Shown here: in pieces, positions 49,967 to 64,000 of the stretch
How the letters are laid out: each line of letters starts with the position of its first letter
Numbering within the stretch: position 1 is the first letter of the stretch
NCBI GenBank assembly: GCA_023252195.1
Contig: JAHEXI010000013.1
Coordinates: 1-64,000 of the forward strand
Direction of reading: 5' to 3'
Source: Pseudonocardiales bacterium
GTDB taxonomy: Bacteria > Actinomycetota > Actinomycetes > Mycobacteriales > Pseudonocardiaceae
DNA length: 64,000 bases
Made by a program: the position numbers and the translations under genes
Notes under the pieces: generated by a model
Told to the model about the DNA's origin: nothing
The model's database searches: none
What the model saw: only the letters and a program-made list of their open reading frames with translations

Positions 49967-50205
49967 TCACTGCTTCGCCCGAGCGTTGTCTGGTGAGCTG
50001 CGAGCGGCGGTACCTTCCCAAGACCGCACGACCAGCTCGCCCTTGGTGATCTCCACGTAGGTGGCGTCCGAGAGCCAGTTGCCCGAGTTCACGTAGAGGC
50101 CCTCGGGCAGCGTGACCATCTCAGCTGAATGCGTGTGACCGAAGACGACCGCGTCGAAGCCCCGACGGACCGCGTCGTGCCGGCCTCGGGCAATCTCGCC
50201 GTGCG
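49967..50205 (-). pseudogene. C-terminal fragment of a metallophosphoesterase
   Basis: About 79 codons encoding ARGRHDAVRRGFDAVVFGHT HS followed by LYVNSGNWLSDATYVEI. This is the GHTH-containing C-terminal end of calcineurin-like phosphoesterases (LpxH-like pattern). The N-terminal metal sites are missing because the gene is cut by a transposase relic on the opposite strand near 50205. A further copy of its last 33 bases is found at 56044-56076. Confidence 0.75.
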
Positions 50206-50905
50206 GGGTAAACAGTTCTGGCTCGGACCCACCCGCGCCGGGGTCACCGTCACGTTCTGGGCTGATCACGACGTGATCCACCTGAGCATCGCCGGTGCCC
50301 GGGTCAAAACCGTCCGCTCGCATCTGTCCGCCACCGACCTGGCCGCCCTGGCTGGCACCGGGGGCCGCCCCGCTGGCCCCTCACCGCTACCCCCGGCCGG
50401 ACCCGACGCCGCCCTGGAGATCGATCGGACCGTGTCCTGCGGGGGCCTGGTCTCCCTGGGTGAACACCGACTGCTCGCCGCGGAGATCCTCAGCGGCCGG
50501 CGGGTCAGCATCCGCATCGACGCCGCCACGCTAATGTTCTTCGATCCCGACACCCGCGAGCTGCTGCGCACCCGACCCAACCCGCTGAGCTACGACCAGG
50601 CCCGCAAGCTGCGCGGCGCCCGCTCCGCCGGCCCACCACCCCGGCCCTCGGTGGAGCCGGTCACCATCCAACGCCGAGTATGGGACACCGGGGTCATCAT
50701 GGTCGCCGGACAAAAACTGGCCCTGGGCCGCACCCACGCCCACACCATCATCACCGTCCACGTCGCCGAGCACACCATCACCGTCGATTTCACCGACGGC
50801 GCCCAACGCACCTTCCGCCGCACCACCACCCAACCCATCCGCAGCTGGCAAGCCCAGCGCCCCCGCACACCCAAACCCAATGACCAACCGGCGGTAGGCA
50901 CATGA
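50181..50905 (+). mobile_element. IS481-type transposase remnant 1 (C-terminal part)
   Basis: The frame encodes the C-terminal extension of an actinobacterial IS481-type transposase: ASGNLAVRGKQFWLGPTRAG, VIHLSIAGARVKTVRSHLS, GRRVSIRIDAATLMFFDPDT and RELLRTRPNPLS, followed by a repeat-like block VAGQKLALGRTHAHTIITV. The catalytic DDE domain is absent, so it cannot transpose. It truncates the metallophosphoesterase gene. Confidence 0.8.
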
Positions 50906-51140
50906 AACGCCGGGTCACCACCGCACGGGCGGCGCAGCTTACGGGCCGGCCCCTCCAGCCTCCAGGGTGCTACGCATCGCGAACGCGACCGCCTCCGGCG
51001 GCCCTGGACCCTGGAGCCTCTACCGACCCTGCGGCAGGATCAAGGGCAGGCCACGGCCTGCCCCACACCACGCGCCGCCCGCGCTCACCACCGAACCCGG
51101 CCGACCGTGGACACACAACCCCCTACGTTTCCTAGCCCCA

Positions 51141-51231
51141 ACGTCAAGCATCACCTGGGACTAAAACGTCAAGCATCAGGTGGGACAAGACAGTCATCGC
51201 GTGCTGTGTCCAGTCCCGCCTGATGCTTGAC
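51141..51231. mobile_element. Insertion-sequence ends in tandem
   Basis: ACGTCAAGCATCA occurs twice (51141-51153, 51166-51178). The second starts a 19-base arm GTCAAGCATCAGGTGGGAC that pairs with GTCCCGCCTGATGCTTGAC (51213-51231, one mismatch). Between them lies GTCATCGCGTGCT, which is also present beside IS remnant 2 at 54317. This looks like two abutting IS termini. Confidence 0.6.
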
Positions 51232-51339
51232 AGTGAGGCCGCCGCATCAGCCCAGCCTGCCCGCGCCGGTGATCTGCTGAAGCAACAGTGCCTGAGTCCC
51301 GCTGCGTTGACCTGCTGGACGCCACTTCTCGACCGCGGG

Positions 51340-51385
51340 CTCGTGAGTGCCTAACGGTGTCCTAACGCTGTTAGGCACTCACGAG
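51340..51385 (-). terminator. Long hairpin overlapping the end of the orphan DUF397 gene
   Basis: Perfect 16-base arms CTCGTGAGTGCCTAAC (51340-51355) and the inverse (51370-51385), loop 14 bases. The DUF397 stop codon lies inside the arm. Confidence 0.7.
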
Positions 51386-51594
51386 GCCAGGTCGTCAAAC
51401 TCACCGGCCTTGACGCCGTTGATCCAGGCGTTCAGCTCGGTGTGGGTGAACAGGATCGTTCCATCGTCGGGGTGTTTGCTGTTGCGCACGGCGATGTGTC
51501 CACCGGGTATGGCGGCGACCTCGACGCAGGTTCCGTTGTTGCCGCTGAAGCTACTGGTGCGCCAGTGGGTGATTGAGGGGTCTGGGGCGGTCAC
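51379..51594 (-). CDS. DUF397 protein (orphan)
   Basis: A 71-residue DUF397 protein: WRTSSFSGNNGTCVEVAAIP, IAVRNSKHPDDGTILFTHTE, ending GVKAGEFDDLAS, a complete normal end. The GTG has GGAGA upstream. No XRE partner gene is adjacent, although a tandem repeat resembling a regulator-binding array lies upstream at 51705-51746. Confidence 0.85.
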   Translation of the reverse strand: MTAPDPSITHWRTSSFSGNNGTCVEVAAIPGGHIAVRNSKHPDDGTILFTHTELNAWINGVKAGEFDDLAS

Positions 51595-51704
51595 GGGCTG
51601 TCTCCGACCTTGAGGATCTGATGATCGATGGGATGAAGCTAACGGGCTCCTCGGGGCAGCCCATTGCAGGTTTTCCGAAGCCATGGTAAGTGCGTGGACT
51701 TAAA

Positions 51705-51746
51705 GTCTTGTAACAACTTGAGAATGTCTTGCGACAACTTGCGAAT
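51705..51746. promoter_or_regulatory. Two tandem 21-base repeats upstream of DUF397
   Basis: GTCTTGTAACAACTTGAGAA-T (51705-51725) is followed directly by GTCTTGCGACAACTTGCGAA-T (51726-51746), differing at three positions. A third partial unit (CTTGTAAG) follows. The CTTG/CAAG content and position suggest an operator array for a regulator of the XRE type. Confidence 0.55.
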
Positions 51747-51848
51747 CTTGTAAGTAGACGCGGCCATCGTGGAGCCCGACACAACCGATCGAGCGCACAG
51801 TCTCGACGTCCACCACCGCACGACCTGGCGAGAGGAGGCGTTCGGCGT

Positions 51849-52108
51849 CTACTTGGCGGACCGTCGTACGGTGTCGATGAGGACGTCGATGAGTGGAGGG
51901 CGGGTCTGGGTGCTCATGGCGTGCAGCACGGCCATGAGGCGTGGGCCTGGGCCAGCTCGGTGGGGGTGGCCGGTGCCAGCGCACTGATGAAGTGCAGCGC
52001 GATGAGCTGCAGCAGCGTCATCCCGCGGCCGGCCCAGATAACAGGGCTGGCAGTGACCATCGCTTGCAGCCGCCCCACGAGCCAATCGACATCCTCCGTT
52101 GTGACCAC
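51849..52108 (-). pseudogene. Degenerate marR paralogue
   Basis: From the ATG at 52108 the product MVTTEDVDWLVGRLQAMVTA and MTLLQLIALHFISALAP mirrors the MarR protein at 41553-41972. It then loses the DNA-recognition part, shifts frame near 51925, and recovers a C-terminal segment (PLIDVLIDTVRRSAK, like VLTEVLKDTARRLAR) in another frame ending at 51849. A non-functional duplicate. Confidence 0.75.
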
Positions 52109-52230
52109 GCCGGCGCCGGGGCCGCCACCGCGCCATCAGACTGCGAGACAGCACTTTTGCTGCCCGATGACGCGCCGCTGGGGCTAGCTCGGCGCTGCGC
52201 GCGTTGATGACCCAGTCGCCATGTCCTCTC

Positions 52231-52440
52231 CTACGAGTTGGGCTTGGCGTCTTCGGCCAACCGCACAAACGTGCCTGCGCCGACCAGCTGGCGCGTCAGC
52301 CGCTGCCAGTCCACCGACGATCCGTCGCACCAGACCACTTGGTCGGGGCGGGTGAGCTCGGCGACCTCGCAGACCCACTCCCGCAGTCGACGGTGGCGGG
52401 TGGGTGCCTGGTCAAGGCCCGGAACGGTTGCTGCCGTCAT
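52231..52440 (-). pseudogene. Truncated N-terminal copy of pckG
   Basis: A 69-codon frame. [19 protein letters not shown], then [20 protein letters not shown] and [20 protein letters not shown] align without gaps to the first 65 or so residues of PckG (27752-29581). It ends in a TAG at the point corresponding to the KPNS of the real enzyme, so no substrate or nucleotide site is present. It is a fragment of a pckG-like gene, diverged from the local one. Confidence 0.8.
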
Positions 52441-52860
52441 CGCGTATGTCGTCACGGGCGCAGGCACCACCGGCTGCGGCGTCAACCGAACCGGGGTGCG
52501 CGTGCGGGGTTCGGTGGGCGGCGGCGGAGACCACCGCCGCTGCGAGACCGGGATCCGACAGACGGGCACGCGGTGTAGGTCGCTGGTACGGCTGTGGGTC
52601 GGTGTGCGTCCGGGTGTCGCAGGTCCGCGGAGGATGTCGCGCTCTCGGCGTACCGCCCGCGTGTAACACCAAGCCCTGTGTACGGCGATCACCAGGCCGC
52701 GGCCGGGGCTAGCGGCCGCCGTGCGACAAGCTGGACTCTTCGGTTCGACACGGGCGAGCAGTTCCCGCTTCGGTCGCGGTTCCGGGCCGTCAGCTCTAGG
52801 AGCATCGACGTGGGATGACCGGCGTGCCCACCGCCGCCCCACGCCGCGGACCACCTCGAC
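52441..52860. other. Non-coding stretch between two gene fragments
   Basis: About 420 bp in which frames are open on both strands, but none has protein-like composition or a ribosome binding site. It probably represents decayed DNA. Confidence 0.45.
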
Positions 52861-53057
52861 TCACTCCTCGGCCAAGGCGAACGGCAGCCGTGAGCCATCC
52901 ACCCATGTCGCGACGTCGATGCCACGGCGCGCGGCCATGTCCATCAGGTCTTCCAGGCGCGCGGTGACAAGTACACCTTGTACGGCAGACCGGCCTCGCC
53001 CGCGAGGACTAGGTTGCGCTGAACCGTCTTGACCTGTGTACGCAGCTTCTCGGTCAC
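52861..53057 (-). pseudogene. Small helical protein gene with a one-base frameshift
   Basis: The start at the GTG at 53057 reads VTEKLRTQVKTVQRNLVLAG and EAGLPYKVYLS. The other frame continues ARLEDLMDMAARRGIDVATW and ends FALAEE at 52861. Together they make about 65 residues of a two-helix protein known from other actinobacteria. The frames differ by one base near 52960. AAGGAG lies 12 bases before the start. Confidence 0.6.
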
Positions 53058-53432
53058 GACCGTTAGCTCTCCTTCCCCAGCCTTCCAGAAACACAATATC
53101 TGCACTTTAGAAATCGCGCAATTGCGTGAGGGGTGGTGTGTGGCGCCAAGTTCGCCGAGCATGCGGTGCCGAGTACCGGCCCGGGTCCGGGGAAGTGGTG
53201 ATGATCGGAGTCTGCGCGAGTTGGTCCAGACGCCTCCGCGATCGAGGGGGAAGCTCATCGGTCTACAAGTCTTGCCAAGTTTGCAACTGCTGTATCTTTT
53301 GGGAGCGCGGGCGTGGCCGGTTCTCGTGCGATGTGCGAACGAAGGAGGCTCGCCGGTATGACGAGAGAGGGCAGCGACCAGGCGCCGGCGGTGTGCAGCC
53401 TTGCGGGCGTTGACTCTGCGGAGCTGATCTGA
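53058..53432. other. Intergenic region before the arsR-type gene
   Basis: About 375 bp with promoters of the divergent small gene and the ArsR gene presumably inside. It has a lower-GC part near 53080-53120 and near 53270. No gene is supported. Confidence 0.4.
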
Positions 53433-53801
53433 GTGAGTAGGCCGCTTTATCAGCTCAAGGCCGAGTTCTTCAAGACCTTGGGGCACCCAGCGCGGATCCG
53501 GGTGCTGGAACTGCTCAGCGAGCGTGAGCACGCGGTGGGCGAGATGTTGTCGGAGGTGGGGATCGAGCCGGCCAACCTGTCGCAGCAGTTGGCGGTGTTG
53601 CGGCGGACGGGTCTGGTGGCCACGCGTAAGGAGGGTTCGAACGTCTACTACTCGTTGACCAGCCCCCGCGTGGCCGAATTGCTCGCCGTCGCCCGCGCGA
53701 TCCTGACCGGTGTGTTGTCCGGTCAGGTCGAGTTGCTGGAAGAGATGACTGTGTCGGCGCCCGAGGGAGATCAGCCGGATAGGGTCTCGCGGGTTAGTTG
53801 A
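53433..53801 (+). CDS. ArsR-family regulator
   Basis: A 122-residue winged-helix repressor: LYQLKAEFFKTLGHPARIRV, LELLSEREHAVGEMLSEVGI, the recognition helix in PANLSQQLAVLRRTGLVATR, and the wing KEGSNVYYSL. No metal-binding cysteine pair is seen, so it may sense another ligand. Relatives are typically followed by a SulP-type anion transporter gene. Here that position is occupied by an IS relic, so the transporter has been lost or moved. Confidence 0.85.
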   Translation: MSRPLYQLKAEFFKTLGHPARIRVLELLSEREHAVGEMLSEVGIEPANLSQQLAVLRRTGLVATRKEGSNVYYSLTSPRVAELLAVARAILTGVLSGQVELLEEMTVSAPEGDQPDRVSRVS

Positions 53802-53929
53802 GCCGCGGCCACGCCGCCGGTTCGCCTCCTCCCCGATGGGAGACCGCTTCCACGGTCCGGGATTGGAGGGGAAGTGTGCTGGCGGATCTGACACAAGATC
53901 TACGCGACTGGCCCGGGAGTCGAACCGTG

Positions 53930-54261
53930 TCCTGACCCGCGCCATTCCGCTAACCCTGACCCCTACCCAACGCGCCCGTCTCCAAGGCGCCCACACCCCC
54001 GGCCCTCCTCCGATCTTCGACCAGCGTCCTGCCCGGGCCCAGCGCACCGTGTCCTGCCCCGGGGGCACCCACGTCATCGGCCAACGCGTCCAAGTCGGGC
54101 TGCGCTATGCCGGGCAGATCGTCACCATCGAAGTCGACGAAACCACCCTGCGCGTCTACGACCACCACGATCATTTGATCAAGACCGTTCCCCGCAGCAG
54201 CCGCAGGGAGGTCACCCGCCACAAGGCCTACGGACACACCACCAACCGCAAAACCGGCTAG
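53930..54261 (+). mobile_element. IS481-type transposase remnant 2 (C-terminal part)
   Basis: The last 110 codons of an IS481-type transposase: IFDQRPARAQRTVSCPGGTH, VIGQRVQVGLRYAGQIVTIE, VDETTLRVYDHHDHLIKTVP and HKAYGHTTNRKTG with a proper stop. The catalytic domain is missing. Downstream, GTCACCCATCA is found twice (54267-54277, 54292-54302), the same doubled-end arrangement as in remnant 1. Confidence 0.82.
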
Positions 54262-54380
54262 GCACTGTCACCCATCAACTGAACACGATCCGTCACCCAT
54301 CATGTGGAGTCAGACATGTCATCGCGTGCTTACGGATCGCGGTCAGGTAGCTCATGGTTTTCCCTGGTCAGCGGACCTTG

Positions 54381-54514
54381 CGGGTGGGGGTCTCCCTTGC
54401 GGTGCAGGCATCGCCCTACCCGGTGGGGCAGGGCTCGGCATCGCCGACCGCGTGCCGGCGTGGCCTTGCGCCATCGGGTAGCCATCGGTGCGTCGCAAGG
54501 GAGACCCCCACCCG
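54381..54514. repeat. 134-bp element bounded by 21-base inverted repeats
   Basis: Perfect arms of 21 bases (54381-54401 and 54494-54514; core GTGGGGGTCTCCCTTGCG) enclose 92 bp that contain further partial self-complementarity (GCATCGCC, GCCATCGG segments). No frame inside. It resembles a MITE-like non-autonomous element or a structured RNA. No target duplication is visible. Confidence 0.6.
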
Positions 54515-54782
54515 AACGTCTCCCATTCCTCCCGACGCGGTCGCCCGGTCCAAGGCAGCGCTCTGGCCGCCGGAGGCACCAGCATCGACGGGAAACTGGA
54601 TGACACGGGACTAGCTGTGGTCGATCACGGCGGACTAGCTGGGGGACCTTCCGGGTTACCGCTCGGGCCGTTTTGATCAGCTCATGTCACTCGTGCGCTC
54701 GACAACCGACGGCACAGCAGAGGTTTCCGCGACGTTCCCGGACACGGGGAGCGGTGTACGCGGTAACCATCGCCGGGTGATC

Positions 54783-54950
54783 ATGACCACCTGCGAGGCG
54801 CATGGCTCGCCTGGGTTCACGAATCTGCTGGTGACCAAGGAGGACGGGATCATTGTGTTGAACCCGCACGTGGCGAACTGCTGCGTGCTGCGGCTGGATG
54901 AGCAGGCCGCGAGGGCGCTGCTGGGCATCCTCGGCGAGTGGCTCGGGTGA
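54783..54950 (+). CDS. Small conserved-looking protein
   Basis: A 55-residue protein, MTTCEAHGSPGFTNLLVTKE then DGIIVLNPHVANCCVLRLDE and a C-terminal helix. The regular strand/helix pattern and repeated cysteines look like a real small protein of actinobacterial regulator neighbourhoods. No function known. The GTG at 54777 is an alternative start. Confidence 0.5.
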   Translation: MTTCEAHGSPGFTNLLVTKEDGIIVLNPHVANCCVLRLDEQAARALLGILGEWLG

Positions 54951-55053
54951 ACGGGCACCTGCACGTTGTGGATGAGCACACGTGAGCTGCACGGGGACAG
55001 TGCGAGGAACGCACGGGTGCGAGCTGGACGGCGCTCACCGTCAGCGGTCCCCG

Positions 55054-55290
55054 GTGATCGGCTTGACTCGGTTTGCGAGATCTACCCGTGATGGTTGCGT
55101 GCACGTCCTCGCGCCTGCAGATGAGCATTCGACGGATGGGCTCATGGCGCGCTGTGGACAAGTGTTGCCAACTGAGGTCATCGAGCATGACCAGCCACCA
55201 CCCGGCCCACCCTGCGAGCCCTGCCGGCTGATGTTCCTGGAGGACTTCACCGCTGGTGGCCGCTCACGCAGCAGCGGTGCCGCCAACTGA
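55054..55290 (+). CDS. Small cysteine-containing protein
   Basis: About 78 residues from a GTG. The core is HVLAPADEHSTDGLMARCGQ, then VLPTEVIEHDQPPPGPPCEP and CRLMF. The spaced cysteines (ARCG and CEPC) suggest a zinc ribbon. It resembles the type of short protein found beside DUF397 genes. The start is uncertain because the frame is open from 54982. Confidence 0.5.
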   Translation: MIGLTRFARSTRDGCVHVLAPADEHSTDGLMARCGQVLPTEVIEHDQPPPGPPCEPCRLMFLEDFTAGGRSRSSGAAN

Positions 55291-55305
55291 TGTCCCCGGA
55301 TCCCC

Positions 55306-55350
55306 GGTCGGCCGCCGGTCGAGCACCCCCGACACTCCCGGCGGCCGGCC
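55306..55350. terminator. Bidirectional hairpin between convergent genes
   Basis: CGGCCGCCGG (55309-55318) pairs with CCGGCGGCCG (55338-55347); with a G-U and two more pairs the stem reaches 13. It sits between the small gene ending at 55290 and the HAD fragment ending at 55376. Confidence 0.6.
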
Positions 55351-55375
55351 AGTCCCATGCAGGAAGACATCAGTG

Positions 55376-55790
55376 TCAGTCGGCTAGCAGCGTCTTGAGT
55401 CCAACGGGTAGCTCGCTGAGCGAGTCGAGTTCGAGGTCCGCGGTACCGGATTCGTAGATGATGTAGCCCCACAGGCCGCGCCTGACAAAGACGGTGCGCA
55501 GACCGGTTTCGGCCGCGGGGCGAAGGTCGTTGTCGAGGCGGTCGCCGACGTAGGCGATCTCGTGGGGCTGGTGGCCGCTGACGGCGATGAGTTTGCTGAA
55601 AAACGCTACGTCGGGTTTGGTGACGCACCAGTCATCGGAGGTGGCGAGAACATCGCATGGGAGGTTGAGTTCGCGCAGGAAGTGCCCGGCGCGGGTGGTC
55701 TGGTTACCGGCAATGCCTACGAAGTACTCGGCGTTTTTGAGCGTCTGGAGGCAGGGGCGGACATCGGGGTAGAGGTCGTACCACGAGCGA
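55376..55790 (-). pseudogene. HAD-family hydrolase, N-terminus lost
   Basis: About 135 codons with HAD motifs II to IV: FVGIAGNQTTRAGHFLRELN, the lysine in VTKPDVAFFSKL, and IAYVGDRLDNDLRPAAETGL. Motif I (DxDxT), which carries the nucleophile, is missing. The reading frame runs into foreign sequence at about 55790, where a duplicated piece of another gene begins. It cannot be active as it stands. Confidence 0.78.
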
Positions 55791-55802
55791 TGACCGCACC
55801 GA

Positions 55803-56040
55803 ACAGCTTGGCCGCTGTAGCGGTCCTGGGCGAGCGTGAGGCGCACCTCTCGGGGTGCAGCGCCTTGCCGTGGTCGATGCCGCCGCGTGGTGGCTCTCGG
55901 AACCCAACGGTGGCGAGGAACTTGCCTACGCACTGCTTGCTGCGAGCTGTGTCGCGGAGATCACCACCGAGCACGTTTACCTGGCCCTGATCACTCCATT
56001 CAACGAACCAGAGGATGAGGGTGAGGCTCCTTCTTTGTAG
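55803..56040 (+). pseudogene. Duplicated 3' part of the 188-residue protein gene
   Basis: Close copy of 63680-63920. The reading frame LAAVAVLGEREAHL is followed, after a one-base loss near 55850, by VDAAAWWLSEPNGGEELAYA and LLAASCVAEITTEHVYLALI. It lacks the first 110 codons. Bases 56044-56076 continue with a copy of the metallophosphoesterase tail found at 49964-49996, so this is a junction of at least three old fragments. Confidence 0.8.
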
Positions 56041-56233
56041 AGCTTCACTGCTTCACCCTAGCGTTGTCCGGTGAGTGGGCCCGCGGCCGTGGTCATGAAG
56101 GGAGGACGGCGCGAACGCGCCGCCTTGATACCTTCCGCGCGTGGCCATGGAATGCCGCATCACAAGGGTGCGGGCCCTCCCGATAAGTGTTCAGACGATC
56201 GGTTCATATTGGCAGCTCCGTGATGTTAAAGCT

Positions 56234-56488
56234 TCAGTCGTCGTCAAATGGATCATCCACGATCGTCGGTGCGCTGTACCAGTAGCATTCAGCCCACGGA
56301 ATCCCGCATCGTGGGCATCGGTTCTGCTTTTCGTGGGCGATGCGAAGCGCTGCCCACTCCTCGTTGAGGCTGCGGCGTTCCTCGGCCTGTCGACGGAGTC
56401 GGGCCTGTAACGCCTGGATCGTCCAGGTCGTTCCCAGCAGCAGCCCGAGGCAGATCAGCACCACCGCGGTCAGCGCTAGCGGCATCAC
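56234..56488 (-). CDS. Small membrane protein with CxxC-type motif
   Basis: An 84-residue protein with one N-terminal membrane helix (LALTAVVLICLGLLLGTTWT), a charged helix (LQARLRRQAEERRSLNEEWA) and a tail RCPRCGIPWAECYW that may bind zinc, then an acidic end. It is divergent from gntR and shares the intergenic control region. Such proteins occur in actinobacterial integrative elements. Role unknown. Confidence 0.65.
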   Translation of the reverse strand: MMPLALTAVVLICLGLLLGTTWTIQALQARLRRQAEERRSLNEEWAALRIAHEKQNRCPRCGIPWAECYWYSAPTIVDDPFDDD

Positions 56489-56560
56489 TGTGTCGACATG
56501 ATTGCCCTCCTCATGAGGTGTGAGTCCGAACCGGCAGTTAGACAGCAGTGTAGTCAGACA

Positions 56561-56592
56561 TCAGACGTCCGTCCAGTGGTTAACACGTCTGA
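56561..56592. promoter_or_regulatory. Inverted repeat in the gntR / membrane-gene control region
   Basis: TCAGACGT (56561-56568) and ACGTCTGA (56585-56592) are exact inverses 16 bases apart. Between them is GTGGTTAACAC, itself nearly palindromic and similar in type to FadR-family half sites. This is a likely operator for the GntR regulator. Confidence 0.5.
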
Positions 56593-56771
56593 CGCCTTAC
56601 GGGTGTACCCTCTGGTCGGACAACCATCCGCTCTCGCGCCAACCGCCCGGTCCGCCCGTCACAAGCGGGCAACGACGGCTAAGCCCCATAGCTCCTGCGT
56701 TGCCGGTCGTATGACATTCAGCCGCGACGCAGAGGTAGACAGACGGGGACGCGAGACAGACAGGAGTGACG

Positions 56772-57587
56772 ATGAGCAGTACCCCGGACGGTGACGCAAG
56801 GGGCTCGCGGGTCCACGAGTGGGAGCTGAGGCTGGACGCACGGCGACCTCTACCGGAAGTGATCGAGGACAAGCTGCGAGAGCTCATCGAGACCGGTGTG
56901 CTGCAACCCGGCGAGCGCCTTCCCAACGAGCCGGAGCTCGCCAGGAGGATGGGGGTGGCGCGCAGCTCAGTACGAACCGCATTGCAGCGCCTAGAGGTTC
57001 TCCGAGTGGTGGAGGTGCGACGGGGACGTGGCTGGTTCGTTCGACGAACACCGGTTGGCCATCCACCAGACGAGTTCGCAGACTGGATTTCTGAGCGGCG
57101 TTTCCGGATCAGTGAACGCCTCGAAGTCCGGATGGCGCTCGAGGGCATGGCCGCAAGTCTTGCTGCCGCGCGTGCAACCGAGGGGGAGATCGATGACATT
57201 GCAAAGCTCAGCAAAGATCATCTCACGGCTTCCCCCGACGTTGATGAGCTGATCAGGACTGATGAGGCCTTTCACGACGCTATCTTCCGCGCCAGCCACA
57301 ACGATTTGCTGGTCGAGACTTACCGGAGGCTGATTCCAAAGCTCACCGAGTGGCGCCGACGAGGTCTCGGGCGGGATGGGATGCCGGCACGTTCTGCTAC
57401 CGAGCACGATAATGTCGTCCACTTTCTGAGACGAGGTGACCCCGCCGGCGCACGCGCCGCGATCATGACTCACCTGCTCGGCCTCTACCACGACATTCAT
57501 GCAGCCGAGGATCGGCAGGCCACAGAACAGCCTGCCCAGCTCGCTACATTCATGGGCATTGAGGACGAACCGGACTGGCAGCCCTGA
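56772..57587 (+). CDS. FadR-type GntR-family regulator
   Basis: A 271-residue repressor-type protein. The winged helix-turn-helix spans about 25-95: PLPEVIEDKLRELIETGVLQ, PGERLPNEPELARRMGVARS, SVRTALQRLEVLRVVEVRRG. A C-terminal FCD helical ligand domain (about 105-240) has HDAIFRASHNDLLVETYRRL and the metal-type histidine pattern ATEHDNVVHFL. The ATG at 56772 has AGGAG five bases upstream. It precedes the peptide-modification genes in the same direction, and a degenerate copy lies just past them, so it most likely controls this cassette. Confidence 0.88.
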   Translation: MSSTPDGDARGSRVHEWELRLDARRPLPEVIEDKLRELIETGVLQPGERLPNEPELARRMGVARSSVRTALQRLEVLRVVEVRRGRGWFVRRTPVGHPPDEFADWISERRFRISERLEVRMALEGMAASLAAARATEGEIDDIAKLSKDHLTASPDVDELIRTDEAFHDAIFRASHNDLLVETYRRLIPKLTEWRRRGLGRDGMPARSATEHDNVVHFLRRGDPAGARAAIMTHLLGLYHDIHAAEDRQATEQPAQLATFMGIEDEPDWQP

Positions 57588-57672
57588 CCCGGGGCCTGCG
57601 CCAGGTGGCACTCTCAGCGCTGTGACCTCAAGATGTTGTCACTGGCAACTCCACGGACGGGGAGTCTTCGCG

Positions 57673-58716
57673 GTGGGTGTGGCACTTTTGGCGTTTACGG
57701 CCGCGTTCCTTGGCGGTGTCCTCACGGCAGCACTCCTCGCAGTGGCCTATCGGACCATGTGGCGACGCCGCTTGACTGACGAGCTTCTCCAGCTGTCCGG
57801 ACCGTCGATTGTGCAAGCGCTCGTACCGCAGCAGGTGATGACCACCCTGCTCTCAAAGATCTACGGCAACGGCGAAGCCAACCACGATGTGGTTGCCGGC
57901 GTGCTAGGCGGTGAGGGCGTCGACTCACACGGCGCTGATCTGACCATCAGCACCCACACCACCGTGGACTACGAACTCCGGGCAGTTGATCATCAAATTT
58001 ATGAGATTATCTCCACAGTTACGTACAGTTTCAAAGGAAATGTGCCCGACCACAGGTTTGTCATTTTTGCGGCGTGCAACCCGTTACTCCGTGACTCAAT
58101 TACACTTGCCTGCCGACTGCCGCTATTCGAATTCTGGTTCGTGCACGACCGGTTACTCTTCGAGCAGGCGGTGGACGCAATGCTCTCGTCGGTGAACATC
58201 GGTATCCGCTACACCGATCTCGACGGTTGCCATCATGATGTGCCACCCAGCAAGGTGCAGTTGACTGAAGTGAGCTATCGCGACTGGCCTGAGTTCTTGA
58301 CTTTCTTCCGCGGACCAGTGGGGACGATGCCCCGCCAGAACCCCGCACAATACATTGGCACTCTGCGAATCTTCGAGTGTGACCTCGACGAACTCGCCCA
58401 CGTCGACCACGCTGTCAGCTCAGTGGAAAACCTGTCTCTGCGGTCGACGACACTGCAACGGCTGGACGACGGCTTCTGCTATTGGCAAGCCCCCTACCCA
58501 TGCTACGTTGATCGCATCAGCTTCAACCCGACCGCGCTTATTATCGACGGTAGTTCCTGGCTTTTCAACATCGTGCCCTTTACTTTTCGATCTGGCATCG
58601 CGACGGTCGCATGGACCCCGGCAGAGCAGCTAAAAGATCTAGCTGTACGCTCCTGGCTGCTCCCTGGCCACGGCGTTGCCCTCCTGTGGAAGCGATCGAA
58701 TGACCACACCAGCTAG
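57673..58716 (+). CDS. Membrane-anchored protein of the RiPP-like cassette, unknown function
   Basis: A 347-residue protein from a GTG with GGGGAG eight bases upstream. The N-terminal membrane helix is VALLAFTAAFLGGVLTAALL. The remainder is a soluble domain without motifs that I can name. It includes ISTHTTVDYELRAVDHQIYE, FVIFAACNPLLRDSITLACR and FRGPVGTMPRQNPAQYIGTL. It overlaps the next gene by 17 bases, so the two are translationally linked. In this context it could be an accessory for maturation, export or immunity; that is inference only. Confidence 0.6.
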   Translation: MGVALLAFTAAFLGGVLTAALLAVAYRTMWRRRLTDELLQLSGPSIVQALVPQQVMTTLLSKIYGNGEANHDVVAGVLGGEGVDSHGADLTISTHTTVDYELRAVDHQIYEIISTVTYSFKGNVPDHRFVIFAACNPLLRDSITLACRLPLFEFWFVHDRLLFEQAVDAMLSSVNIGIRYTDLDGCHHDVPPSKVQLTEVSYRDWPEFLTFFRGPVGTMPRQNPAQYIGTLRIFECDLDELAHVDHAVSSVENLSLRSTTLQRLDDGFCYWQAPYPCYVDRISFNPTALIIDGSSWLFNIVPFTFRSGIATVAWTPAEQLKDLAVRSWLLPGHGVALLWKRSNDHTS

Positions 58717-60025
58717 ACCCGTGCGATCTGACATCCCCGCACTGCACGCATACATCGCGTCCTCGGGCGCGTTGCAACGAGAACGTCGAGCTCTCTATCA
58801 GTTCGCTACCGAGCTGCTGCCGGGCGGCTGTCCACAGCAGATGCTGGATCCCGATGTCATCGACAGTCCGCTGGCCCGTAACCACATTGGCGCCGTGCTG
58901 GCCGGCCGCGCGAGCCTGACGTACTCAGCGCTTGTTGGCACCAGTGCCGTGGCAGATGCTGCTAGCCGCGTACAAAACCTCTGGGTGGCGTCGCGACCGG
59001 AGGCCAACACCCTGCTAGCGGCGGCGTTGGACACCGTTGGATCAGAGCTATCTCGTCAGGAGGCGGGGTTCGAGTCCCCTCGGCTCCTTACCGAAACAGA
59101 TGGCGAGCGCTTTATCTCAGCGCTACGTGTGCTGAGTGATGGAGTTGCTCTGGCTCGGTCGGTGAACCCCGAACTGATTGATGACCTACTTGTCCATATC
59201 ACACTAGTCGGGGTCCTCGATCCGCAGTGCGCCGGACGACTGGCGTCTGCGTCTCTTCGCACCTTTCCCGGATTAGTTCTGCTGAAAAGTTCGCAATCGA
59301 GCATCGAGGTCGCCGAGGCACTAGTGCACGAAGGCGCTCATCAGAAGCTCTTTGACCTGGCCATCACTCATGACCTACTGAATGCTGACTCACACCAGTG
59401 CCCACCGTTTCACCCACCATGGGGACCGGAGGAAAGTCTCTGGCCGCTGGAGCAGACCCTCGCCGCGTGCCACGCATACGCTTGCATGGCTCGATTCGCT
59501 CTCGACGCGGGTGTCATGGCCGGAATCCGCGTGGTTGGGCACAATTCGTTGCTTCCCGTAGCCAGTGAGCGGAGCGAGATCCTTGGTCAATGGCTGCTGG
59601 ACAAGGGTGATCACCTCGGTGATGATGCGCATATACTGTTGAACGGCCTCCTTGGTCGATGGCCGCGCACCTCCCGTATCACGGAAGTCTTGCCTAGGCA
59701 GGTGACTGCGGACTACGTCATCGACAGGCAGCTAGAGTTCCGCCGTTGTGGTTCTTCGAACCGGGTTCTTGTGGGGTGTCCGTCGCAACCTCCGCGGCTG
59801 TGCTGGGTCAGTGATGAGGCGGCGACGGTAATCGAGCTTCTCGCGCAGAGCTCCCTCGATGAGGTCACCAAGATCTTCGCCCAACAGTGGCGAGTGAATC
59901 AATCTGACGCCGCTGGCCGGCTGAGTGCGGTGCTCTCGGACCTCTGCGTAGCTGGGCTGCTAAGTAGCAGGGCTACTAGAAGTAGGGACTCAGTGGGTGG
60001 TGGCCGTAACACAGGGTGTTGCTAG
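58700..60025 (+). CDS. HExxH peptide-modification protein fused to a PqqD-like domain
   Basis: A 441-residue protein starting at an ATG inside the previous gene. The central motif ALVHEGAHQKLFDL (His210, Glu211, His214) plus the later block HPPWGPEESLWPLEQTLAAC fits the mod_HExxH family (named alpha-ketoglutarate-type HExxH peptide beta-hydroxylases in recent annotation), enzymes associated with ribosomally made, modified peptides. The C-terminal 80 residues (about 345-425: PRLCWVSDEAATVIELLAQS, then AGRLSAVLSDLCVAGLL) have the helix-rich pattern of PqqD-type RiPP recognition elements that bind a precursor's leader. This fusion would let one protein both capture and modify the peptide encoded 91 bp downstream. 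Confidence 0.72.
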   Translation: MTTPARPVRSDIPALHAYIASSGALQRERRALYQFATELLPGGCPQQMLDPDVIDSPLARNHIGAVLAGRASLTYSALVGTSAVADAASRVQNLWVASRPEANTLLAAALDTVGSELSRQEAGFESPRLLTETDGERFISALRVLSDGVALARSVNPELIDDLLVHITLVGVLDPQCAGRLASASLRTFPGLVLLKSSQSSIEVAEALVHEGAHQKLFDLAITHDLLNADSHQCPPFHPPWGPEESLWPLEQTLAACHAYACMARFALDAGVMAGIRVVGHNSLLPVASERSEILGQWLLDKGDHLGDDAHILLNGLLGRWPRTSRITEVLPRQVTADYVIDRQLEFRRCGSSNRVLVGCPSQPPRLCWVSDEAATVIELLAQSSLDEVTKIFAQQWRVNQSDAAGRLSAVLSDLCVAGLLSSRATRSRDSVGGGRNTGCC

Positions 60026-60070
60026 CATGATCCTTACAGCGCTAGGATGATCTTCACCATGAGTGAGGTG

Positions 60071-60100
60071 TGACCGTCAACAGTAGATCTGACCGTCAAC
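60071..60100. promoter_or_regulatory. Direct repeats before the peptide gene
   Basis: TGACCGTCAAC occurs at 60071-60081 and again at 60090-60100, spacing 19 bases, immediately upstream of the ribosome binding site of the 57-residue peptide gene. Two binding sites on nearly the same DNA face suggest a separate control point for the peptide. Confidence 0.5.
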
Positions 60101-60116
60101 GAGGGGACAGGTTCTG

Positions 60117-60290
60117 ATGATCAAGGAAAGCATTGCCAAGGACAACGCACCATCGAAGCACGCCGTGCCTGTTGCCTGGTTCCAGGGTGATCCTGGGGGC
60201 ACTATCTTCATCGTTCCACCGGGGGGTACAGCAGCTTCCAAGCCAATCATCGAGGAGGGCGGTGATGGCATCACCAGCCCTCATAACTGA
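60117..60290 (+). CDS. Candidate RiPP precursor peptide
   Basis: A 57-residue peptide that is too short for ordinary gene calling but has a clear ribosome binding site (GAGGGGACAGG, five bases before the ATG). The N-terminal part MIKESIAKDNAPSKHAVPVA would be the leader. The C-terminal part has WFQGDPGGTIFIVPPGGTAA, then SKPIIEEGGDGI and TSPHN. It is rich in Gly, Pro, Thr, Ile and Asp, residues that HExxH-type hydroxylases could modify on their beta carbon. It lies directly after the HExxH/PqqD gene in the same direction. The precursor role is inference from size, location and composition. Confidence 0.65.
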   Translation: MIKESIAKDNAPSKHAVPVAWFQGDPGGTIFIVPPGGTAASKPIIEEGGDGITSPHN

Positions 60291-60369
60291 CGACCGCTCG
60301 GTCCGCCGACCGACCGGTTCGAGCCCCACTGGCTAGCAGTGAGGCGGAGGTCCCGGGCAGCGCCGTCTC

Positions 60370-60702
60370 CTATCGCTGGGAGTTGAAGCTGGACGCACGG
60401 CGACCTCTACCGGAAGTGATCGAGGACAAGCTGCGAGAGCTTTATCGAGACCGGTGTGCTGCAACCCGGCGAGCGCCTTGCCAACGAGCCGGAGCTCGCC
60501 AGGAGGATCGGGGTGGCGCGCAGCTCAGTGCGAACCGCATTACAGCGCCTAGAGGTCCTCTGAGTGGTGGAGGTGCGACGGGGACGTGGCTGGTTCGTTC
60601 CTCGAAAACCGGTCGGTCATCCACCAGACGAGTTCGCGACTGGATTTCTGAGCAGCGTTTCCAGATCAGTGAACGGCACGAGAGCCCCCTGGATCTTGAA
60701 TA
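60370..60702 (+). pseudogene. Degenerate copy of the gntR regulator gene
   Basis: Closely similar in DNA to 56817-57130. Three lesions are visible. One extra base in GAGCTTTATCGAG shifts the frame. A C-to-T change turns CTCCGA into CTCTGA, a stop. One base is lost in the segment before ACTGGATTTCTGAG. Only the DNA-binding part is present. It flanks the peptide gene on the side opposite the intact gene. Confidence 0.88.
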
Positions 60703-60809
60703 AGCGATTCGACTGCGGTGCGCGTGTGCCCACCCACAAGGCGCTGGCTTGTGGCCGTCTAGCCTGGAGGTCACTCGGATCGGTTACACGCTGTTAAGTC
60801 TCATGCTGC

Positions 60810-60822
60810 CGGTATACACTGT
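60810..60822. repeat. 13-base repeat CGGTATACACTGT, copy 1
   Basis: An exact copy is at 61362-61374. Both lie in low-GC stretches 50-90 bp before possible starts, as expected for promoter -10 regions or operators. Between 60704 and 60912 I find no gene, only this element and AAGGAGG at 60855. Confidence 0.5.
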
Positions 60823-60912
60823 AGCGTGTGAGCCTCATGCACAATGATTGTAGCAAGGAGGATCACGGCAGGAACGTGCGTTGGGGTGTAATGACCAGTA
60901 TCAACGGGTGCT

Positions 60913-61194
60913 GTGGCGTGCCCATGGCAAGTCTACGCCAATGACGTTACTGTACAGTCAAAACTCACAAAGATTGAGATTTCCAATACTCGATCGCTTC
61001 AGATCGGTCAAAGTCATGACAGTCAAGACCAGACGGGTGAGATTCAATCGGTTCCGGGACTAGCGAGTCCGAACATGGCCGAAGCGACTCGCCAGATTGA
61101 TGCTGAATTACATCGGAACGCCGCGAAACCTCTGGTATTGAGTGAACGAGCTCGGGAGAGGCTGGAATCGCTTCAGGGAGCAGTACCTTGCTGA
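60913..61194 (+). CDS. Possible small protein of unknown function
   Basis: A 93-codon frame from a GTG: WQVYANDVTVQSKLTKIEIS, then LQIGQSHDSQDQTGEIQ, and a helix with EATRQIDAELHRNAAKPLVL. GC is clearly below that of the surroundings. Its final helix SERARERLESLQ overlaps the next frame by 53 bases, so the two could be one gene broken by a frameshift. No function is recognised. Confidence 0.35.
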   Translation: MACPWQVYANDVTVQSKLTKIEISNTRSLQIGQSHDSQDQTGEIQSVPGLASPNMAEATRQIDAELHRNAAKPLVLSERARERLESLQGAVPC

Positions 61195-61519
61195 CCTCGG
61201 CATGAAATCCGTACGGATTGCCCGGCGGCGAAATCTTGAGACTGTGGACGAGTCGCACGTCCTAGCAGCCCGTGAACGGATGGGTGGGCCATCACGCGGA
61301 TCCGCGCTCATCGCCTTCACGAATACAATTGGCGGTGTAGTTGCTGGTGCGTAAATTGCTTCGGTATACACTGTCACGTTTACCGCAGGCCCACATAGTA
61401 CACGTGAGATGTTGGCATCAATCCTACTATGCATTGCCGGATTTGTACTCCTAGCGGTTTGTTTAACAGTGCTGCCGCCCAACGGCGATCCTGAAAGCCA
61501 GATAGCTTCAGTGGCGTGA
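61142..61519 (+). pseudogene. Small membrane protein gene with an in-frame TAA
   Basis: From the GTG at 61142 the frame reads FREQYLADLGMKSVRIARRR, then NLETVDESHVLAARERMGGP and a hydrophobic stretch, to a TAA at 61352. The same frame then continues without shift through a strong membrane helix (LASILLCIAGFVLLAVCLTV) to a TGA at 61517. It is probably one protein of about 125 residues with two membrane segments, interrupted by a stop mutation. Alternatively it is two short genes, the second starting at the ATG at 61415. Confidence 0.5.
61362..61374. repeat. 13-base repeat CGGTATACACTGT, copy 2
   Basis: Identical to 60810-60822. It lies just after the in-frame TAA and 41 bases before the ATG at 61415, so it could drive the distal half as a separate unit. 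Confidence 0.5.
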
Positions 61520-61631
61520 AGTCCAACCAGTCGGGGACCCCGTCGGCGAAGATGGCAACATCTCAACTGCAAAGAGTGCTGCCGGCGTGGACGAGTACAT
61601 CGCCCGTCGCGTCGCCGAGGCGTGCGCATGA
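61505..61631 (+). other. Short open frame directly before the integrase
   Basis: The frame after a TAG reads VGDPVGEDGNISTAKSAAG, then VDEYIARRVAEACA, and ends in a TGA overlapping the integrase ATG (ATGA). The overlap and position match an excisionase gene end in pSAM2-like elements, but no helix-turn-helix is present. It is at best a remnant. Confidence 0.3.
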
Positions 61632-62850
61632 GTACGCCGAGAGTCAGAGCCAACGGCGAGGGTTCGCTGTTCGCCTACCGCAACGGATACGCGGCCTACG
61701 TGTGGGTCACGACGCCGGGTGGCGGCCGCGAGCGCAAATGGATCTACGGGCAGGACCGGGACGAGCTGCATAGTCGGTGGATCGACCTGCAGAAACAGGC
61801 AAAAAGCGGCCCGTAGCTACAAAGGTGCCCAAGGTCGCCGAGTACCTCACCTACTGGTTGCAGGAGATCGTGGCGCCCAACCTCGCTCCACTCACGTACG
61901 CGACATACGAAACCCTGACCCGGCTGTACATCGTGCCGGGCCTGGGCGCCAAGCGCCTCGACAAGCTCACCTTGCGAGACGTACAGACATGGCTGAACAA
62001 AGTCCGGCAAAGCTGCCAGTGCTGCGCCCAGGGCAAGGACGCTCGCCGGCCGGCAAAGGCCCGTCGATGTTGCGCGGTCGGCAAGTGCTGCGGCGCTGCG
62101 CCGTCACCGCGCACGGTCAGCGATCTTCGGACCGTGCTCCGGTCCGCGCTGTCCTCGGCCGCTCGGGAGGAGCTGATAACCAAAAATGTGGTGACCATGA
62201 CCCAACTGCCGGCACGGCGCCGACGCAAGAGAAAGCCGTGGTCAAGTGACGAGGCGCGGACCTTCCTTGAATCAGTACGCCTCGACGACAACGCGCTCTA
62301 CGCCGCCTACGTGCTGATACTTGTCCTCGGCCTGCGTAAGGGTGAGGTCCTCGGGCTCACCTGGCTCGATGTGGATCTGGATGCAGCCGAGCTGACCGTT
62401 GGTTGGCAACTGCAACGGGTCCGTGGCGAACTGCTGCACCGAGAAACCAAGACGGCGGCCTCGGATGCGACGCTGCCGTTGCCGCCAATCTGCGTGGCAG
62501 CGCTCAGGCAACGGCGAACGGCCCAGGACCGGACTCGCGAGGTCGCCGGCGAGGCGTGGACCCGATCGGACCTGGTGTTCACCACCCGGTACGGCGACCC
62601 CATCGAGCCCCGCAACTTCAACCGCTACTTCGCGGCTCGATGCGCGGCGGCAGGGGTCCGGCAGATCACTGTCCACGATGCCCGGCGCACCTGCGCCACC
62701 CTCCTCGTCGACCTGGACGTACACCCGCGAGTAGTGATGCAGATCCTGAGGCACGCACAGTTCGACGTGACGATGGAGGTGTACGCGTCGGCGTCCTCCG
62801 CGGCGACCCGGGAGGCGCTCAAGCGGCTGGGGGCGAGCCTCGATGGCTGA
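61628..62850 (+). pseudogene. int: Tyrosine recombinase (integrase), split by a one-base shift
   Basis: A phage-type integrase. The N-terminal arm-binding part ANGEGSLFAYRNGYAAYVWV is in the first frame, which hits TAG at 61814-61816 after QAKSGP. The second frame continues VATKVPKVAEYLTYWL and the SAM-like domain PLTYATYETLTRLYIVPGLG. The catalytic domain holds Arg in LGLRKGEVLGL, HxxR in VHDARRTCATLL, His in LRHAQ and Tyr in MEVYAS. Adding one base near 61813 restores a full-length protein of about 407 residues. A cysteine-rich insertion (CQCCAQGKDARRPAKARRCC) is present. It points toward the tRNA-Pro remnant 100 bp away. Confidence 0.85.
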
Positions 62851-62904
62851 GACGCGCTGCTGTACTTCGCAGCTGTACAGGCCGATTCAGGCGCAGAAAA
62901 AGAA

Positions 62905-62930
62905 CAGGAGCCCGCTGTTATGGGCTCCTG
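62905..62930 (-). terminator. Rho-independent terminator, minus strand
   Basis: CAGGAGCCC (62905-62913) pairs with GGGCTCCTG (62922-62930), loop 8. On the minus strand it is followed by a T-rich run (TTCTTTTTCTG), the classical form. It lies just beyond the 3' end of the tRNA-Pro remnant and so belongs to that tRNA. On the plus strand it may also end int transcripts. Confidence 0.75.
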
Positions 62931-62948
62931 ACCTGCTGCTTTGTGGTG

Positions 62949-62992
62949 TCGGGGTGGCGGGATTCGAACCCACGGCCTCTTCGTCCCGAACG
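62949..62992 (-). tRNA. 3' half of a tRNA-Pro gene (integration-site remnant)
   Basis: On the minus strand the sequence runs from the anticodon loop TTCGGGA (anticodon CGG) through CGAAG, the variable loop, the T arm GTGGGTTCGAATCCCGC and the acceptor strand CACCCCG plus discriminator A. Homology to a tRNA stops inside the 5' anticodon stem, where CTTCG is expected. No D arm or 5' acceptor exists. Such an anticodon-to-3'-end segment is the typical core of att sites for pSAM2-like elements, so I read this as attL or attR. It cannot encode a working tRNA. Confidence 0.8.
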
Positions 62993-63005
62993 CGCGTAGA
63001 CCGTG

Positions 63006-63021
63006 ATGACCAGTATCAACG
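63006..63021. repeat. 16-base direct repeat ATGACCAGTATCAACG
   Basis: Exact second copy at 60891-60906. The two copies bracket the integrase region, one of them 14 bases from the tRNA remnant. It may be part of the recombination site or a relic of an earlier insertion. Confidence 0.6.
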
Positions 63022-63251
63022 AGTACGGTCACGTGCTCGTGGGTCTCCGCGTCGGGTGCTCTGGTGGCATCTCGTGCCGGTCGGTTGCTGACTTTCTGCT
63101 GACTTCGATCAACCAGGCACCCTGGTCGAGCCTCCACTAACGGAGCTGCTGTGTCCTGCCCAAAAACAGTACCCAGGCAGTCGGGACTAGTTCCGAAGGG
63201 GCGGTGCGGACCAGGAGCGGGACCTGGTTCGGCGCCGGATGAGCAAGTGAG

Positions 63252-63312
63252 ATCAGAGGGCGCACCCGCCCTCTGATGAGACGGCCGAGGGTCGGTGCTG
63301 GAACACCGACCC
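63252..63312 (+). other. Two hairpins in the leader of the 188-residue protein gene
   Basis: ATCAGAGGGC/GCCCTCTGAT (63252-63261, 63268-63277) and GGGTCGGTG/CACCGACCC (63289-63297, 63304-63312) form consecutive stems about 40 bases before the start codon. They could terminate upstream transcripts or regulate the gene. The rest of 62996-63353 has no supported gene. Confidence 0.5.
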
Positions 63313-63353
63313 CCGGCCTTGATCGCCAACCCTGCAGAGAGGGTGGAGACCCG

Positions 63354-63920
63354 ATGCCAGACCCTAGGCAATTCGATCCGGACCGGCTCCGGGTGGTGCT
63401 CGATCACGGTGAGGCTGTGGAGCTAGACGGCGGCACGCTCATCCTGGAGGGCCAGGAGTCCCCGAGCGTGGTGCTCCGGCTGGCGCCCTGGCGCGTGCGG
63501 TCAGTCGCCCGGGTACTGCACGAGTGGTCGTCAGTGTCACGGATCCTCCACCACCCGACTCGACCGCACCTGAATGAGCTGGATCTGTCGCGGACGCTGG
63601 AGTTGGCCGCTGCGGTGCTCGGCGCCAGCGACGAGCCAAACGCGCGGTCTCTCCGCGGATCGCGCGTCATTCCCAATCGGCAACGCTTGGCCGCGGTGGC
63701 AGTCCTGGGCGAGCGTGAGGCGCACCTCACGGCGGTGCAGCGCCTGGCTCTGGTCGATGCCGCTGCGTGGTGGCTCTCGGAACCCAACGGCGGCGAGGAA
63801 TTTGCCTATGCACTGCTTGCTGCGAGCTGCGCGACGGAGGTCACCACGGAACACGTGTACCTCACCCTGATCACCTCATCCCACGAACCAAATGATGACG
63901 GCGAGGCTGCGTCCCCGTAG
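63354..63920 (+). CDS. 188-residue protein of unknown function
   Basis: The ATG has GGTGGAG upstream. The N-terminal half (about 1-75) is beta-rich (VVLDHGEAVELDGGTLILEG, VVLRLAPWRVRSVARVLHEW), and the C-terminal half is helical (AVQRLALVDAAAWWLSEPNG, then EEFAYALLAASCATEVTTEH). No signal or membrane segment. I do not recognise it. Its last third is duplicated, with a frameshift, at 55803-56040. Confidence 0.75.
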   Translation: MPDPRQFDPDRLRVVLDHGEAVELDGGTLILEGQESPSVVLRLAPWRVRSVARVLHEWSSVSRILHHPTRPHLNELDLSRTLELAAAVLGASDEPNARSLRGSRVIPNRQRLAAVAVLGEREAHLTAVQRLALVDAAAWWLSEPNGGEEFAYALLAASCATEVTTEHVYLTLITSSHEPNDDGEAASP

Positions 63921-64000
63921 CAGCTGGCCTACAGATCCTACCGCGCCTCAGTACTCCCACCCTGCCGTGCAATGGAACGGATTTCCACTGGGTGGATGGT

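Follow-up and report, generated by a model that had tools for sequence, protein, structure and literature searches.

A conserved gene unit of Pseudonocardiaceae pairing a predicted aKG-HExxH-type peptide hydroxylase with a short, motif-bearing peptide

The locus and its conservation in the family

The DNA considered here (the window) is a 64,000-nucleotide stretch from a Pseudonocardiales bacterium of the family Pseudonocardiaceae (assembly GCA_023252195.1, contig JAHEXI010000013.1, positions 1 to 64,000), in which an initial annotation made from the letters alone had proposed, at 56234-60290, a compact candidate system for a ribosomally synthesized and post-translationally modified peptide (RiPP). 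All five open reading frames (ORFs) of that proposal exist and are open. Four lie on the forward strand: a GntR/FCD-type transcriptional regulator (gntR, 56772..57587; Pfam FCD 4e-25, GntR 3.9e-19), a membrane-anchored protein (57673..58716), a 441-residue predicted alpha-ketoglutarate (aKG)-HExxH-type peptide hydroxylase with a C-terminal domain resembling PqqD and other RiPP recognition elements (RREs) (58700..60025), and a 57-residue precursor-like peptide (60117..60290). The fifth, on the reverse strand and divergent from gntR, encodes a small protein of 84 residues (56234..56488).

The set of regulator, membrane protein, enzyme and peptide is real and conserved, and is inherited jointly across genera of one family. 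Among 297 sampled genomes of this family, 50 contained a strong match to the enzyme (E <1e-90) and one more contained an enzyme gene split over contig ends, and all 51 also carried the membrane protein; the unit is frequent among Amycolatopsis and related genera. We mapped 52 loci, 51 from 50 genomes (both copies in the window's genome being counted) and one, L024, from a separate search, leaving out G005, where the unit is split over contig ends, and G009, where it meets a contig edge. Each of the 52 contains, within 1.8 kb, gntR and a membrane-protein match, and each has a peptide-profile match downstream of the enzyme on the same strand, at a distance of 27-1850 nt (median 159; within 295 nt in 49 loci). 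Relative to the enzyme, the membrane-protein gene is directed away in 42 loci and runs the same way in the other 10. The peptide profile was built with rows from 15 of the 52 loci; the other 37, many of them close relatives of contributors, gave none. Since a profile match adjoins the enzyme in all 52 loci, the peptide is not a chance ORF. Its ATG is preceded at about 9 nt by GAGGGGA, and the pairwise ratio of nonsynonymous to synonymous substitution (dN/dS) was 0.23-0.63 in 42 of 43 pairs, the last being undefined because synonymous sites were saturated. The initial annotation, which had called this peptide a gene and had named homologous loci without a conserved small peptide gene as the finding that would speak against its proposal, is borne out on this point.

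The window's genome holds a second copy of the unit, in which the enzyme is 65% identical, the membrane-protein gene is broken, and open frames remain for the enzyme and one peptide. Searches across the class in 393 and 334 other genomes, a sparse sample, found nothing strong beyond the window's genome and one weak partial match among the 393, and neither the enzyme nor the membrane protein was matched among plasmids. Another genus of the family has, in five genomes (L097-L101), gntR and membrane-protein pairs without enzyme or peptide. Amycolatopsis loci contain a conserved hydrophobic ORF of 53-80 residues upstream of the enzyme (L018:4699-4860 and equivalent places in L019-L023), and in two Pseudonocardia genomes a gene for a ClpC-type ATPase is found a short distance upstream of the unit (L024:3-2435, L026:3-2540).

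The enzyme, the peptide and their proposed relationship

The enzyme matches the NCBIfam family TIGR04267 (IPR026337; mod_HExxH, "aKG-HExxH-type peptide beta-hydroxylase") at E 1.6e-18 and 67.3 bits, above the cut-off of 40. Its HEGAH motif (residues 210-214; 59327..59341, +) is identical in all 13 aligned enzymes. The AlphaFold2 model of the enzyme, for which 13 sequences were used (pLDDT 87.5, pTM 0.86), matches, over residues 11-320, the HExxH domain of ChlB, known as ChlH (8s5f; Z 20.9, 268 aligned residues) and, over residues 10-319, SjiH (22ob; Z 20.2, 279 aligned residues). A profile of the 13 enzymes compared with PDB sequences had ChlH as its sole match (E 0.0088), and the enzyme and ChlH have the S-x-S...PG and HE-x-x-HQK signature in common.

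The C-terminal region (residues 337-426; 59708..59977, +) consists in the model of strands followed by helices at 372-381, 386-396 and 401-417, and matches PqqD (3g2b; Z 7.0), two TbiB1-leader complexes (Z 6.7 and 6.3) and a lasso B1-leader complex (Z 6.4). We assign it as an RRE because of this fold match, not because of a sequence profile: the match to Pfam PqqD (PF05402) fell below the cut-off and was rejected as proof, and a relative (L025) scored 18.7 bits against TIGR04353, under the cut-off of 35. The HExxH-PqqD fusion of the initial annotation therefore stands by family profile for its first half and by structure, not sequence, for its second. We regard the protein as very probably a peptide oxygenase that carries its own recognition domain.

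An alignment of 17 peptides places the conserved motif at residues 19-34 (VAWFQGDPGGTIFIVP; 60171..60218, +). F22 and T29 are invariant, and the positions of V19, R24, G27 and P34 are conserved in at least 90%; the window's own peptide has G at position 24. The 81 copies give the consensus P-V-T-x-V-D-[WF]-F-R-R-M-P-x-G-G-T-x-[YF]-x-[KR]-P, with P at 98%, one G at 98% and T at 97%. Copies at or below 22 bits or lacking [VINAL]-x-[WF]-F were dropped, so conservation at those places is by choice; the alignment of 17 was made without the [WF]-F rule. The position of the motif differs: Amycolatopsis-type peptides have it close to the C-terminus, those of the window's genus in the middle, and the remaining sequence is variable. 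This single conserved stretch stands at a variable distance from either end, a leader could not be distinguished from a core, and the recognition part that had been expected at residues 1-20 does not correspond to it, the N-terminus being variable.

The pattern D-x-F-R-R-x-P-x-G-G, searched in the DNA of the 297 genomes, gave 41 sites in 36 genomes: 39 at unit loci and two outside them, of which that in G217 falls within a prophage-like region and that in G147 elsewhere. The reversed pattern gave none in the same genomes. The peptide of the window itself and several further loci escape the pattern. The motif was not matched in plasmids. A TNT domain in an 861-residue protein (L152:391-2976, +) holds a stretch, WFEQPGGGTAFVLP, that is weakly like the motif, an unexplained resemblance.

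Taken together, these data make it fairly likely that the locus is a RiPP-like unit in which the peptide is bound by the RRE-like domain and oxidized by the Fe(II)/aKG domain, and the peptide is probably the client of the enzyme. The RRE-like domain would hold the peptide while the catalytic domain would, most simply, beta-hydroxylate at least one residue of the motif, with the W/F-F pair, the acidic residue and the prolines as candidate targets. More loosely, the membrane protein may anchor, export or sense the modified peptide, and the regulator may switch the unit on.

Several observations weigh against this proposal. The conserved set includes no protease or exporter, and the score against Pfam PqqD was low (E 0.11, 13.3 bits versus a cut-off of 23.4). 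In the Pseudonocardia enzymes L024 and L026 the helical part of the RRE is missing, yet both adjoin motif peptides, so the RRE is not essential everywhere; both neighboring peptides have an altered RR pair, and these two cases hint at a link with the absent helices. The window's own peptide departs from the consensus, with QGDP in place of RRxP. At E 0.01 the peptide profile matched 86 of the 297 genomes, and beyond the 52 that have the unit (G009 with a cut-off part of it), the remaining 34 gave weak matches (1.7e-4 to 0.0099), mostly within long ORFs; the TNT-domain protein described above is one of them. The enzyme profile at E 0.001 matched 60 genomes, namely the 51 counted above and nine with weak matches (1.8e-20 to 7.4e-4), which we take for other mod_HExxH proteins; eight of the nine are without the membrane protein, and the window's own genus accounts for one (G004). 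Of the 58 genomes with the membrane protein, 7 have no complete enzyme gene: gntR is the sole companion in five, all of one genus, the membrane protein stands alone in one, and one case is at a contig edge. In favor of the proposal, none of eight neighborhoods with the membrane protein and without a complete enzyme gene (L097-L103, L105) had a peptide match; against it, one of these, L103, stops at a contig edge, and the peptide is present elsewhere in that genome, on a different contig.

The motif in phage proteins and alternative explanations

Outside unit loci, three genomes (G217, G232 and G096) contained strong motif-bearing ORFs in prophage-like regions. The neighbors of the G217 ORF are genes of phage type, namely a WhiB-like gene and members of PHROG families; the region of G232 is the same DNA as virus record L156, and that of G096 the same as L161. 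In all, five virus records (L155, L156, L161, L163 and L165) carry the motif near protein N-termini. The phage and prophage proteins (L155:2966-3250, +; L163:11460-11945, +; L156:319-828, +; L161 and L165, -; and further L149:6023-7009, +; L150:5294-5803, +; L151:5776-6249, -) look mostly unrelated outside the motif. L163 and L165 seem related to each other, since read from the nearest GTG both begin V-[NS]-E-V-[DE]-W-F-R-R. L155, which also has endolysin and thymidylate-synthase genes, has, within a single open stretch of 131 codons, two complete motif copies in tandem and part of a third. The five records scored E <=8.7e-9 against the peptide profile, versus >=0.011 for other records with the pattern and >=4 for control records, a separation seen in this score alone, with the qualification that the records were picked by patterns overlapping the profile used to score them.

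These occurrences could mean that the motif is a recognition tag in a phage-host conflict, with the host unit reading the tag and phage proteins carrying a decoy, bait or hijacking signal. This explanation is compatible with peptide hydroxylation by the unit, and its odds and those of the hydroxylation proposal are not exclusive. It draws on the motif in the five virus records and in the three prophage-like regions, two of which duplicate DNA of the records, and on the finding that the unit is present in each of the three genomes that host these regions, compared with 51 of the 297 sampled. We nevertheless consider it unlikely: the cases are few, the hosts are known for only two of the five virus records, none of the five unit proteins matched an anti-phage defense family in the PADLOC 2023 profiles, and the raw pattern matched the virus records no more often than a permuted control (8 and 8). 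The enzyme was not found in virus records L155 and L156, and searches of named phages for the motif gave no match, or matches only at E 3 to 10. A further suggestion, which we offer tentatively and as less likely than not, is that WFRRxPxGGTxY could be a modification or recognition tag common to host micro-peptides and phage proteins, read by the aKG-HExxH-RRE hydroxylase or its membrane partner; the host peptides would be the proper clients, and phages would imitate them, in one case in tandem, to titrate, exploit or evade the system.

Alternatively, the peptide may regulate the membrane protein or GntR, or be a ligand of either, rather than serve as a substrate, with the enzyme acting on something else. 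The enzyme-free pairs described above, in five genomes of one genus, indicate that the membrane protein and GntR have a life of their own, and 19 of the 52 loci have an extra peptide match on the far side of the membrane-protein gene (one of the 19 below 20 bits). However, the five enzyme-free pair loci are also without the peptide, which therefore tracks the enzyme and not the membrane protein, and the peptide match downstream of the enzyme on the same strand is present in all 52 loci. We regard this alternative as improbable. It is also quite unlikely that the HExxH protein is a peptidase (zincin) trimming an ordinary, unhydroxylated signal peptide: zinc proteases classically carry HExxH, the model has some likeness to unrelated zincins too, though at low Z (4.8-5.9), and PflC is described, in PMC12636437, as proteolytic when the leader is missing, but the ChlH and SjiH oxygenases (Z 20-21) are far nearer than any protease listed, the mod_HExxH cut-off is passed and HE-x-x-HQK is common to the enzyme and ChlH.

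Accessory genes, flanking DNA and relation to described pathways

The membrane-anchored protein ("P0002"), with a hydrophobic N-terminus and a beta-rich domain that is probably cytoplasmic, is not assigned to a family: it had no Pfam or NCBIfam match above cut-off. Its start is more likely the GTG at 57673, preceded at about 8 nt by GGGGAG, than the ATG at 57499 inside gntR, because relatives in the same genus begin there. Likenesses of its AlphaFold2 model (pLDDT 78) to M1-aminopeptidase-like or ribophorin-like domains were rejected; the best Z was 8.7, with TM-scores near 0.25, about those of unmatched models, and we therefore claim no family. The 84-residue protein, with a single hydrophobic stretch at its N-terminus and a CPRCG segment, likewise had no Pfam or NCBIfam family above cut-off; homologues 57-68% identical stand beside gntR in six other loci of the window's genus, one being the paralogue in the same genome, and it was seen solely in loci of that genus.

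The surrounding DNA appears damaged, as had been noticed at first reading. A broken copy of the 5' part of gntR (56820-57124) recurs 3.56 kb downstream (60377..60681, +; direct repeats D1, D3, D5, 91-97% identical), and 55806-56040 recurs at 63685-63920; these direct repeats form two pairs of gene pieces around the unit, a pattern that suggests tandem duplication and decay. A tyrosine integrase gene (61777-62850) lies between the repeats; no tRNA was found at 50000-64000, and we therefore claim no integration site for it. No RNA family reached its gathering score at 55500-61000.

The initial annotation had also held that no second modifying enzyme is present. Consistent with this, the genome has 16 radical SAM matches, none on the contig of the window (C46) or of the paralogue (C48), and YcaO has no match genome-wide. 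Lanthionine enzymes were absent from the scanned flank proteins, and no genome-wide search for them was made. Pfam scans of nine flank proteins of the window and ten from three relative loci identified no recognized RiPP-modifying enzyme, the domains being a sugar/MFS transporter, alcohol dehydrogenases, TPR, HAD, integrase, HIRAN, ClpC-type, dynamin-like, VWA and one ABM-monooxygenase.

The initial annotation knew of no pathway of this type. Close relatives of the enzyme are in print: ChlH, BpmH/BipH, PflC/PosC and PesO are aKG-HExxH beta-hydroxylases, and all are encoded, as far as the available portions of the papers describe, in clusters with a radical SAM enzyme or a multinuclear non-heme iron-dependent oxidative enzyme (MNIO) (PMC12636437, PMC13060819, PMC12707348, PMC12257519, PMC12452194, PMC12710340, PMC13174530, PMC13252029). 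ChlH, of cyclophane RiPPs (Morishita 2024, per PMC12636437), shares the catalytic fold and the HE-x-x-HQK signature with our enzyme, but in ChlB the domain is fused to a radical SAM domain and needs a preinstalled cyclophane, whereas the unit's enzyme is fused to an RRE-like domain, with no radical SAM gene on the contig. PflC/PosC of Pseudomonas likewise combine an aKG-HExxH enzyme with a small precursor, but the pfl cluster encodes an MNIO-nitroreductase, a GNAT protein and two transporters, and its precursors end in ARMD (PMC12636437). BpmH/BipH of biphenomycin are aKG-HExxH-type beta-hydroxylases that perform a tailoring step in clusters with MNIO, B12-radical SAM and JmjC enzymes (PMC12257519, PMC12707348), and PesO of the nitrilobacillins, which acts on proline, is encoded with an MNIO, a nitrile synthetase, peptidases and a transporter (PMC13060819). 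For SjiH, alike in fold, no paper was found in the literature searched. Since these four published pathways all include a radical SAM enzyme or an MNIO, an aKG-HExxH-RRE enzyme as the only recognizable modifier looks like a new variant among aKG-HExxH pathways. No published report of this unit was found in the literature searched, which is weak evidence, as most subscription journals fall outside it.

If the proposed function is correct, an aKG-HExxH enzyme with its own recognition domain would act alone on a short peptide, providing a one-enzyme model for a young oxygenase fold and a simple way of obtaining hydroxylated peptides. The motif in common with phage proteins makes the biological role of the unit directly testable. 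If the tentative tag suggestion also holds, Pseudonocardiaceae would hydroxylate peptides at the interface of host and phage by means of only one recognizable modifying enzyme.

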